27,576 nucleotides of DNA from a virus. Position numbers and translations under genes: made by a program. The stretch spans positions 1-27,576 of IMG/VR virus record IMGVR_UViG_3300030060_002287; one strand, given 5' to 3'. Position 1 is the first letter of the stretch, and each line of letters opens with the position of its first letter. Positions 2,723-6,268 of the stretch are shown here, piece after piece. The notes below the pieces were generated by a model. That model saw only the letters and a program-made list of their open reading frames with translations. It did not search any database and was not told the origin of the DNA.

Positions 2723-3274
2723 ATGACAGTTAATTACAGAAGAACATCACTAGATAGAGACACTACGTTTTATATACCAAAAGTAGAATGTTTTGCTTGT
2801 TACGACTCGGGTATTGTCTCAAATGGCGATGCCTTTGTTAACCAATTTATACCAGACTATGACCGAGACCAAAAAGGCAGACTTTGTGGTGGACAAGACT
2901 TAGCTATTATTTGTCATTGCAAAGCTGCCTATGGCGATAGTGAAAGTGATAATGAAAGAGAAAGAGTAGGATTCAGAGATAGTTATGGCAATATAAGAAC
3001 AGCAGATTCTATAAGAGGAGAGCCACAACCCCTTGGTTTTTCTCTTGAAAAAGAAAAAATACGACAGATACATACACAAAGAAAAGATGCTTGGCAAAAA
3101 AGTGCCAAAGACATAAATGAAACCAGACAAAAAATTGCTAAAGGAGAAAAATACGAAACCCCTTACTACATACAAGTGGTAAAGGAAGAGTTAACCAAAG
3201 TAGGCGATATGTTTTCTTTTCCTTCAGAAAAAGCTATTGTACAAACAATGACAGAATCTAATGACCAAAATTAA
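2723..3274 (+). CDS. Hypothetical protein with Cys-rich, possibly zinc-binding N-terminus
   Basis: The 183-residue protein has CFACYDSGIV (23-32) and then LCGG (54-57) and ICHCKAAYG (63-71). A CxxC followed by a CxC about 40 residues later is a plausible zinc site, similar in style to zinc modules in phage replication accessory proteins. The second half is charged and helical (about 100-165). It lies between the initiator-like gene and the ParB-like gene, and its last 14 nt overlap the latter. A replication accessory role follows only from position; I cannot name the family. Confidence 0.6.
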   Translation: MTVNYRRTSLDRDTTFYIPKVECFACYDSGIVSNGDAFVNQFIPDYDRDQKGRLCGGQDLAIICHCKAAYGDSESDNERERVGFRDSYGNIRTADSIRGEPQPLGFSLEKEKIRQIHTQRKDAWQKSAKDINETRQKIAKGEKYETPYYIQVVKEELTKVGDMFSFPSEKAIVQTMTESNDQN

Positions 3275-3764
3275 CGACCTAAAACCAGACCATAAAAACG
3301 CAAGAAAAAGAACAGATCGTTCTGCTTCTTTAATTCAAGAATCATTAGAAAGATATGGTGCAGCAAGATCAATAGTTATTGATGAAGATGGTCGTGTACT
3401 TGCTGGCAACGGAACTATAGAAGGTGCGAAAGCTGCTGGCTTAGAGAATGTTCGCGTTATAGAATCTGATGGCAAAGAGATTATTGCAATAAAACGAACT
3501 GGCCTTACTGAAGATCAAAAAGTTGGTCTTGCATTAGCTGACAACAGAACATCTGACTTGTCCGATTGGGATGCAAGTATGTTGCACCATTTATCAATGG
3601 AACATGAAATTGACCCATGGTTTGAACCAGAGGATTTAACAGAATTAATGGACGATAGAACAGATGCAGAAGCACCTGAGGATTTTAAAGATGTTGATGA
3701 AGATATAGAAACAGAACATAGATGTCCAAGTTGTGGTTATGAGTGGAGTGGAAAAGCAAAATAA
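3261..3764 (+). CDS. ParB/sulfiredoxin-fold protein with C-terminal zinc knuckle
   Basis: The 167-residue protein starts with the ParB N-terminal-like fold: KINDLKPDHKNARKR, a helix SASLIQESLERYG, then RSIVIDEDGRVLAGNGTIEG (36-55). The phosphate-binding box reads AGNGT rather than the GxRR of chromosome-partitioning ParB, as in phage ParB/Srx proteins found with DNA methylases. A middle helical part (82-135) is followed by an acidic linker and HRCPSCGYEWSG (153-164), a two-cysteine knuckle that would need a partner for a full zinc site. It opens a block of four overlapping or abutting genes with an ATP pyrophosphatase, a C5 methylase and a CmoA homologue. A DNA-recognition, nuclease or nucleotide-using subunit of that system is inferred. 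Confidence 0.75.
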   Translation: MTKINDLKPDHKNARKRTDRSASLIQESLERYGAARSIVIDEDGRVLAGNGTIEGAKAAGLENVRVIESDGKEIIAIKRTGLTEDQKVGLALADNRTSDLSDWDASMLHHLSMEHEIDPWFEPEDLTELMDDRTDAEAPEDFKDVDEDIETEHRCPSCGYEWSGKAK

Positions 3765-4563
3765 TATAAGAGATATTTTTGAACATTTTTTGCAGAATCT
3801 TCCAGACGGTTTTGTTGTAGCAACCTCTGGGGGTATTTCTTCTGCTGCTTTACTTGCATCTGCTATTGCTGTAAATAAAAGACCTAAAGTTATTTCTTTT
3901 ACATTTGATGATTTTGAATCAACAGATTTTATACTTGCCAAAGCAATGGCACATTATTTTAATGTTCCTTTCTTTCCTGTATATTTACCATCCGATAAAA
4001 ATATAATTAATAATTCTGTTTCTACACTTATACATAAATACAAACTAAGAAAAAAGGCTCGTATTGAATGTTCTTTTCCTTTTTTATATGTAGCAGAAAC
4101 CTTGAAATCCATTGGTATCACTACACTTGTAACAGGTCTTTGTGATGATGGTCATTTTGGTTTATCCAAAAAAGCAATGATACATTACAAGCATACGCAA
4201 GAGAAGTTTGACCAGTTTAGACATGAATATTTTGCAGACCCCGATGCTGCGGGTCGTAAAGGCATACATAAAATCTGTCAAGACTTTAATGTTGATATTT
4301 TTAATCCATATTGCCACCCAACTGTTTTTAAATTATTTATTGGTAAATCTTGGGATGAACTAAATAGACCAAAACAAAAATATGCTATTCGTAAACACTT
4401 TCCAGAGTTAGAACAATTTAAACTTCCTAACCACACTAATTTACAACTGGGTGATAGCAAAATTGCACAAAGAGTAGGAAATGCGGTAATTTCTAAGTAT
4501 AAACCTAATGCAAAATCACCAGTTGGTATCTATAACAGAATCGCAAAAGGCATCTATGCCTAA
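3739..4563 (+). CDS. Asparagine-synthetase-type ATP pyrophosphatase (PP-loop), stand-alone
   Basis: The 274-residue product resembles the synthetase domain of AsnB without the glutaminase domain. It has a PP-loop TSGGISSAALLA (29-40), a second strand VISFTFDD, then TGLCDDGHFG, which corresponds to the SGEGxDExFGG loop, and a C-terminal part with FNPYCHPTVF and KQKYAIRKHFPEL, matching the PFLDxxxxxF and KxxLR elements of the family. The family activates a carboxylate as an acyl-adenylate and joins it to ammonia or an amine. The canonical SGGxDS has Ser in place of Asp here. The ATG at 3739 overlaps the ParB-like gene by 26 nt; GTG 3733 or GTG 3748 are alternatives. With no glutaminase it would use free ammonia, another amine or a partner. 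The substrate may be modified DNA (inference). Confidence 0.7.
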   Translation: MSGVEKQNNIRDIFEHFLQNLPDGFVVATSGGISSAALLASAIAVNKRPKVISFTFDDFESTDFILAKAMAHYFNVPFFPVYLPSDKNIINNSVSTLIHKYKLRKKARIECSFPFLYVAETLKSIGITTLVTGLCDDGHFGLSKKAMIHYKHTQEKFDQFRHEYFADPDAAGRKGIHKICQDFNVDIFNPYCHPTVFKLFIGKSWDELNRPKQKYAIRKHFPELEQFKLPNHTNLQLGDSKIAQRVGNAVISKYKPNAKSPVGIYNRIAKGIYA

Positions 4564-5614
4564 ACCACTTTATAAAATACCTTCTATGGTAGAAATAGAA
4601 GCAACTCCGTGGAATGGTTTTAAAGTTGCTTCAACATTCTCTGGTTGTGGTGGTTCTTGTCTTGGTTATCGTATTGCTGGTTATAAAGTTGTATATGCAA
4701 ATGAATTTATAGAATCTGCAAGGCAAACTTACAAAGCTAACCACCCTAACAGCTTTCTTGACCCTAGAGACATAAGAAAAATAAATGCAGATGATATTTT
4801 AGAAAAGATTAATTTAAAAAAAGGCGAACTTGATTTATTTGATGGCAGCCCTCCTTGCGCTGCTTTTTCCATTGGCGGTAAAAGGGAAGCAGGGTGGGGT
4901 AAAGAAAAAAAATACAGCGAAACAACGCAAAGAGTAGATGATTTGTTTTTTGAATATGCTCGCATACTAAATGGTCTACAACCTAAAGTTTTTGTCGCAG
5001 AAAATGTTGCTGGTCTTGTACAAGGTACTGCAAAAGGTTATTTCAAACGCATACTTACAAAACTAAGGGCTTGTGGTTATAACGTAAAATGTAAAGTCCT
5101 AGATGCACAATGGCTTGGTGTACCACAGATGAGAAAAAGAACAATTTTTGTAGGAGTTAGAAACGATCTTAATATAGAACCAGCACATCCAAAGCCAATT
5201 CCATATCAATATTCTGTAGGCGAAGCACTTGTTGGTGTAGAAGAATCAAACGAATACAAGACCATACCAGAGCATACAGAAACTTATAAATTATGGAAAC
5301 TTACAAAACCCGGCGATCAATTTTATAAAGCAGCTATAAAACTTACTGGTCAAAATAAATTCTTTTCTCATGTAAAGCAATCGCCGTTTCGTGTGGCTAA
5401 TACTGTAGTGCAAGGAACTATGGATAAGTACCATTGGACAGAACCTCGCTTGTTTACAATTCAAGAACTAAAAAGAATCAGCAGTTTTCCTGACGATTTT
5501 ATTCTGCATGGTAACCTATCACAAAAGTGGGAGAGAGTTGGTAGGGCTGTACCTCCACTTATGATGGCCAAAGTTGCAGAAACTGTTGCCAAACAAATAT
5601 TAGAAAAAATCTAA
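4556..5614 (+). CDS. C5-cytosine DNA methyltransferase with Asn-to-Arg change in motif X
   Basis: All catalytic motifs are present in the 352-residue protein: I STFSGCGGSCLGY (27-39), IV GSPPCAAFS (97-105) with nucleophile Cys101, VI ENV (149-151), VIII QMRKR (191-195), a target-recognition region of about 90 residues, IX RLFTIQELKRISSFPDDF (298-315), and X. Motif X reads VGRAVPP (328-334): Arg330 replaces the Asn that is almost invariant in this family and lies beside the cofactor. Motif IV has Ala where Gln is usual. The ATG at 4556 has AAAAGG upstream and overlaps the previous stop by 8 nt; an in-frame ATG at 4508 is less likely. The next gene begins immediately after its stop. It may transfer carboxymethyl from carboxy-SAM instead of methyl; plain 5mC formation is the alternative. 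Confidence 0.9.
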   Translation: MPKPLYKIPSMVEIEATPWNGFKVASTFSGCGGSCLGYRIAGYKVVYANEFIESARQTYKANHPNSFLDPRDIRKINADDILEKINLKKGELDLFDGSPPCAAFSIGGKREAGWGKEKKYSETTQRVDDLFFEYARILNGLQPKVFVAENVAGLVQGTAKGYFKRILTKLRACGYNVKCKVLDAQWLGVPQMRKRTIFVGVRNDLNIEPAHPKPIPYQYSVGEALVGVEESNEYKTIPEHTETYKLWKLTKPGDQFYKAAIKLTGQNKFFSHVKQSPFRVANTVVQGTMDKYHWTEPRLFTIQELKRISSFPDDFILHGNLSQKWERVGRAVPPLMMAKVAETVAKQILEKI

Positions 5615-6268
5615 ATGGATATACCTACAAACTGGACTTTTGAAACCTCTGGTGTTGCACAAGGTTTTGATCGTCATGTAAGAGAACAGTTGCCTTGGTA
5701 TGACTTAGCAACAAACGCAATACTTCATGTGGCGAGACACTATATTTCAGAGAATGGTCTTGTTTATGATTTCGGTGCATCTACTGGCAATATTGGTAGA
5801 GCATTAGAACCAATACTGACAAAAAGAAAAGCACACTTAATAGGCATAGAACCTAGTGAAGAAATGATAAAACTTTATAAGGCACCGGGCGACGTCATAT
5901 GCAGCAAAGCAGAAACATTTATTGCAAAAGATTTTGATTTATCTGTTTTATTTTTATGTTTAATGTTTGTTCCACCAGCCAAAAGATTTAATCTTATGCT
6001 AAGACTAAGGGAGAAATGTAAACCCGGAGGGGCAATCATTGTCTTTGACAAGTTAGAACCAATTGGTGGCTACGCTTCAACTGTTTTCTATCGTCTTACA
6101 CTTGCTGGTAAAAAAGCATCTGGTACAAACTCAGATGAGATAATTGAAAAAGAATTATCTTTGTCAGGTGTACAAAGACCTATTACAGAAGATCAACTTG
6201 CTGGCGATTTCATAAATTGGTTTAAATTTGGCGATTTCTCAGGATACCTTATAGAAAAACCAGCATAA
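5615..6268 (+). CDS. CmoA-like class I SAM-dependent enzyme (candidate carboxy-SAM synthase)
   Basis: The 217-residue protein aligns along its length with CmoA, which converts SAM and prephenate to carboxy-SAM for tRNA wobble-uridine modification. Shared parts are the N-terminal VAxxFxxxVxxxxPxY (14-29), the SAM site VYDFGASTGN (50-59) where CmoA has VYDLGCSLG, GIEPSEEM, KPGGAIIVFDK (136-146), the EIIEK helix, and the C-terminal WFKFGDFSGYLIEK (202-215) where CmoA has WFQCFNFGSLVALK. By hand alignment CmoA Arg199, which binds the carboxylate, falls on Glu180, so the product could differ. Prephenate would come from the host. It starts directly after the methyltransferase stop and overlaps terS. 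The phage has no CmoB, so tRNA is not the obvious target. An ordinary methyltransferase is the alternative. Confidence 0.75.
   Translation: MDIPTNWTFETSGVAQGFDRHVREQLPWYDLATNAILHVARHYISENGLVYDFGASTGNIGRALEPILTKRKAHLIGIEPSEEMIKLYKAPGDVICSKAETFIAKDFDLSVLFLCLMFVPPAKRFNLMLRLREKCKPGGAIIVFDKLEPIGGYASTVFYRLTLAGKKASGTNSDEIIEKELSLSGVQRPITEDQLAGDFINWFKFGDFSGYLIEKPA

Follow-up and report, generated by a model that had tools for sequence, protein, structure and literature searches.

The closest described system is that of Synechococcus phage S-B43, from which Yang et al. (December 2025) characterized the proteins CmoX, CmoA and CmoY (PMC12783734). In this phage, CmoA makes carboxy-SAM (Cx-SAM), the cytosine C5-carboxymethyltransferase SpCmoX uses Cx-SAM to form 5-carboxymethylcytosine (5cxmC) in the DNA motif GC, as demonstrated by LC-MS, and SpCmoY couples the carboxylate of 5cxmC with glycine (PMC12783734). 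The structure of SpCmoX with Cx-SAM (PDB 8YF3, 1.9 A) places Arg350, which occupies the position of M.HhaI Asn304, on the carboxylate of the cofactor; the wild-type enzyme takes Cx-SAM only, the R350N variant is inactive with either cofactor, and the comparison with M.MpeI N374K was already drawn in that study (PMC12783734). ParBc genes were found alongside many CmoX genes, and 5,615 candidate CmoX sequences were collected from IMG/VR and other sources (PMC12783734), so that the DNA analysed here, or relatives of it, may already be included among them. The core idea of carboxymethylation is thus known, and the locus described below is a further member of the family. What we add is a two-residue signature, enzymes with Asn at motif X (Asn-type) within the CmoX clade, and an exchange of the ligase gene.

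The sequence under study, hereafter the window, is the whole of a 27,576-nucleotide stretch of viral DNA (IMG/VR virus record IMGVR_UViG_3300030060_002287, positions 1 to 27,576, with ends as classed by IMG/VR). Its relevant features are as follows:

3261..3764, + strand: ParB-like protein, first gene of the cassette, 167 aa (PHROG 620 ParB-like, E 5.8e-30)
3733..4563, + strand: putative CmoY-like ATP-dependent amide ligase, 276 aa (weak match to Pfam Asn_synthase)
3838..3840, + strand: Ser36 of the ligase (SGGISS), where the normal PP-loop SGGxDS has Asp (sequence motif)
4144..4146, + strand: Asp138 of the ligase, an extra Asp next to the invariant Asp139 (CDDG versus xADG; sequence motif)
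4556..5614, + strand: CmoX, homologue of the DNA cytosine C5-carboxymethyltransferase, 352 aa (DNA_methylase, E 5.7e-61)
4859..4861, + strand: Ala102, motif IV of CmoX (PPCA), at the position of M.HhaI Gln82
5543..5545, + strand: Arg330, motif X of CmoX (ERVGRAVPP), codon AGG, at the position of M.HhaI Asn304 and SpCmoX Arg350
5615..6268, + strand: putative CmoA-like carboxy-SAM synthase homologue and predicted supplier of Cx-SAM, 217 aa (TIGR00740 CmoA, E 1.2e-14)

The four genes ParB, CmoY-like ligase, CmoX and CmoA follow one another in this order from 3261 to 6268, whereas the order in S-B43 is CmoA-CmoY-CmoX. With a replication-initiation gene upstream and the large terminase gene on its downstream side, the cassette is placed between genes for replication and genes for packaging. 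A PHROG 35089 protein is encoded upstream of ParB (2723-3274); it often occurs in relatives and varies more than CmoX. We consider it very probable that a tailed phage carries here, at 3261-6268, a CmoA-CmoX-CmoY cassette for DNA hypermodification. This reading is supported by 8YF3 being the best PDB match of CmoX in both sequence and fold, with the Cx-SAM contacts conserved, and by the presence of CmoA directly downstream and of a ligase of asparagine/beta-lactam synthetase fold directly upstream. Against it stands the modest identity to the tested proteins (39% for CmoX, about 21% for CmoA, and about 31% for CmoY).

The CmoX protein of the window matches 8yf3 best among PDB sequences (E 2.3e-74), and its AF2 model (pLDDT 87.0) again has 8yf3 as best fold match (E 4.3e-32). 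All Cx-SAM contacts named for SpCmoX (PMC12783734) are conserved, namely F28, E50, F51 and D72 (F25, E47, F48 and D69 in SpCmoX) and R330, together with the catalytic C101, which ends an SPPC motif at residues 98-101. The first-pass annotation of this DNA had proposed that AGG at 5543-5545 encodes Arg330, that this residue corresponds to M.HhaI N304, and that a Cx-SAM-using enzyme could explain its occurrence beside a CmoA-like gene. The codon is in frame when counted from the ATG at 4556, and an ungapped motif X alignment agrees with the equivalence to N304 and also to SpCmoX Arg350 (the M.MpeI match in the PDB ended before motif X, and the equivalence to N374 is taken from PMC12783734). An upstream ATG at 4508, from which the same Arg would be residue 346, was rejected as the start, as relatives begin at 4556 (MPKP...) and 4508-4555 lies within the ligase gene in another frame. 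The cofactor proposal is likewise supported, the same chemistry having been demonstrated in SpCmoX (PMC12783734), to which the window protein is 39% identical. The Arg is invariant in 23 of 23 CmoX relatives (alignment A1), which rules out decay or a sequencing error at this codon, and it is found in 101 dereplicated clusters, so that its occurrence is not due to chance. In line with the earlier view that the enzyme is not simply decaying, motifs I, IV, VI and VIII are intact, with C101 and E149-N150-V151 present.

The CmoA-like gene noted earlier as a neighbour begins directly after CmoX. Its product has CmoA structures (1im8, 4gek) as PDB matches, and it falls below the curated cut-off of NCBIfam TIGR00740 (54.5 versus 193.3 bits). 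However, SpCmoA, whose activity is biochemically proven, misses it as well with 115.6 bits, showing that the cut-off excludes true phage CmoA proteins. An Arg near the C-terminus of the window protein is Lys in SpCmoA; this site thus varies. Bacterial CmoA, the Cx-SAM synthase of the tRNA cmo5U pathway, belongs to the same family, but the window protein is a distant member that would serve DNA modification; no CmoB was seen among the window genes examined. Five related loci (L003, L005, L007, L010 and L017) carry about 150 extra bases between CmoX and CmoA, which the window does not.

Our observations cover residues, the order of the genes, homology, fold, covariation and exchange of the ligase; the activity of these particular proteins, what Ala102 does, which amine and DNA motif are used and any protection afforded are inferred, as follows. 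CmoA would convert SAM and host prephenate into Cx-SAM. CmoX would flip a cytosine out of the helix, attack its C6 through Cys101 and transfer the carboxymethyl group to C5, with Arg330 holding the carboxylate of Cx-SAM and Ala102, smaller than the Gln otherwise found there, probably making room. The CmoY-like ligase would then adenylate the new carboxylate and join it to an amine, and the resulting amide on the major-groove face may shield the DNA from host restriction. The window CmoX shares with SpCmoX (8YF3) the motif X Arg, a PPC[S/A] motif IV, the fold and the neighbouring CmoA and ligase, but it has Ala after the catalytic Cys where SpCmoX has Ser. The published carboxymethylcytosine system thereby gains independent support from a distant phage group. 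Cultured phages carry the system too, Pseudomonas phage PaBG being one of them.

The ligase gene, which went unnamed in the finding of the first-pass annotation, overlaps both ParB and CmoX and encodes an asparagine-synthetase ligase domain without the glutaminase domain. A sequence search of the PDB gave nothing useful for it, but its predicted fold (AF2, pLDDT 91.5) did give matches, the best being beta-lactam synthetase (1mc1) and asparagine synthetase B (1ct9). Like the glycine ligase SpCmoY, it is a stand-alone enzyme of the asparagine-synthetase type beside CmoX; the two proteins are about 31% identical (84 identities in a global alignment), and the window ligase differs by Ser for the SGGxDS Asp and by the additional Asp of its second motif. 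The canonical SGGxDS PP-loop is thus absent, its place being taken by SGGISS coupled to CDD: CDD was found in 11 of the 11 distinct Ser-type ligases in which both motifs could be read, and in no readable Asp-type ligase. In beta-lactam synthetase, the corresponding Asp residues, including that of SGGxDS, presumably bind Mg2+, and the metal site of the window ligase may therefore be rearranged. Our search of the open literature found nothing direct on this metal site.

One alternative is that the cassette ends at 5cxmC, the Ser-type ligase being inactive or employed in another job for want of the SGGxDS Asp. The replacement of that Asp by Ser is what this alternative would expect, and the ligase is missing altogether from some close relatives. 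We nevertheless regard it as unlikely: the Ser type forms a supported clade (98/97) whose members are 77-96% conserved, the extra Asp always accompanies the Ser (11/11), decay would not yield such coupled changes, and the ligase fold is predicted with high confidence.

Comparison with close relatives indicates that the ligase gene is exchangeable. Relative to the window, their CmoX proteins are 92-98% identical, CmoA 89-97% and ParB 93-100%, whereas the ligase is either 83-96% or, in most cases, 53-60% identical. At the DNA level, identity is about 85-98% in the flanks, falls to about 65-84% within the ligase gene and rises again where the gene ends. The ligase tree separates the Ser and Asp types (98/97), while the CmoX tree requires at least three changes of type. 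There is also an empty state, seen in L022, L024, L028 and L035, in which CmoX comes right after ParB and its start is fused to MSGV, the sequence that otherwise opens the ligase; a search of the L024, L028 and L035 records revealed no ligase. The slot thus exists in three states, namely the two ligase types and empty, and the gene between ParB and CmoX appears to have been exchanged among closely related phages. For example, in L021, L012, L007 and L022 the ligase (window 3733-4563) is swapped or absent on a nearly identical ParB-CmoX-CmoA background, the ligase of L021 being of the Asp type.

Such exchanges suggest that what changes fast in the arms race is the final DNA decoration and not the first step; they also provide pairs of nearly identical phages for a direct comparison of DNA chemistry. 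We also put forward, tentatively and as a rather doubtful proposal, that ligase exchange changes the DNA chemistry while CmoX and CmoA are kept, and that the Ser/CDD type, with its rearranged metal site, attaches to 5cxmC an amine that is not glycine.

The second unusual residue of CmoX had also been pointed out earlier, as an Ala replacing the usual Gln of motif IV, and it indeed falls on M.HhaI Gln82. In M.HhaI, the two conserved positions shortened to accommodate bulky cofactors are Q82 and N304 (PMC10666283). Both M.HhaI Q82A/N304A and M.MpeI N374K resemble CmoX in being altered at the same motif X position (and, for HhaI, in motif IV) and in their altered cofactors, but they are laboratory variants of methyltransferases, while the phage CmoX is natural and comes with its own Cx-SAM synthase homologue. 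The engineered M.HhaI double variant retains some methylation (PMC10666283), and one may thus envisage a dual-cofactor enzyme making 5mC as well as 5cxmC depending on the supply of Cx-SAM; as wild-type SpCmoX takes Cx-SAM only (PMC12783734), we hold this to be highly improbable, and a dedicated carboxymethyltransferase remains our preferred reading.

Whether the motif X residue tracks CmoA was a check proposed by the first-pass annotation. Loci were collected with CmoX, ordinary C5-methyltransferase (C5-MTase) and ligase queries as well as from named phages, and their C5-MTases were clustered to 175 dereplicated viral or phage clusters; the set was gathered independently of CmoA, and the survey covers CmoA in relation to C5-MTases. 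Arg-type clusters had a nearby CmoA in 94 cases and none in seven, compared with 0 of the 74 Asn- or Met-type clusters (Fisher 1e-41, a value which ignores relatedness), so that Arg tracks CmoA almost perfectly. Of the seven exceptions, three (L088, L089 and L158) carry a complete CmoA at another place in the record, one (L077) shows part of a CmoA where its contig ends, and the remaining three are on contigs of 10-17 kb. No CmoA was found in 20 Asn- or Met-type records searched whole with a query that does recover CmoA where it is present.

Motif IV shows a parallel pattern. When motif IV is read from a profile alignment, the residue after the catalytic Cys is Gln in 54 of 56 readable Asn-type clusters and in 1 of 94 readable Arg-type ones, nearly all of the latter having Ala or Ser; a simpler text match gave 62/65 and 1/99, respectively. 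The main text of the CmoX paper makes no mention of the motif IV Gln (PMC12783734), and its loss may be a second marker, one that could help to tell database entries for carboxymethyltransferases and methyltransferases apart. These covariation counts are inflated by shared ancestry: there are only three independent contrasts, in the expected direction or neutral, and the association of Arg with Gln loss, strong in the raw counts, is consequently suggestive but not significant once ancestry is allowed for.

In a C5-MTase tree built without the motif X and motif IV columns, the Asn-type enzymes L115, L117 and L123 nest within the CmoX clade; their records contain no CmoA, although two of the three are short contigs. 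L115 and L117 have Gln in motif IV, as does every sampled Asn-type row that is readable there. A CmoX-like WGxxK loop is found in six Asn-type enzymes (L069, L115, L117, L123, L223 and L224) for which no CmoA was found; for the first four, the record holds none. These CmoX-like enzymes are possible reversions to ordinary methylation, and those nested in the clade offer natural Asn-type enzymes for comparison.

It is least probable of all that the window enzyme is an ordinary SAM-using 5-methylcytosine methyltransferase with a neutral or alternative motif X residue, next to an unrelated small methyltransferase resembling CmoA: its intact C5-MTase motifs I, IV, VI and VIII and the Met tolerated at motif X in other phage enzymes (GMSVPP) would fit, but within the CmoX clade the sampled enzymes that have another residue instead of Arg all lack CmoA, SpCmoX, a tested relative sharing this Arg, takes Cx-SAM only (PMC12783734), and CmoA is kept beside CmoX in distant phages.

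In the Met-type enzymes L083, L084, L086 and L090, motif X reads GMSVPP, motif IV has Ser and a WGKEKK loop resembles that of CmoX; their cofactor pocket is, judging from these motifs, unusual. As their records yielded no CmoA, loss of the motif IV Gln is by itself insufficient to predict CmoX. Erwinia phage pEa_SNUABM_5 (L088) and Yersinia phage fHe-Yen9-02 (L089) encode C5-MTases of about 700 residues in which Arg stands in GRVCVP and motif IV has Lys. In both phages, CmoA and a CmoY-like ligase are encoded together at a distance of about 13-18 kb from CmoX, so that the pathway is intact although split.
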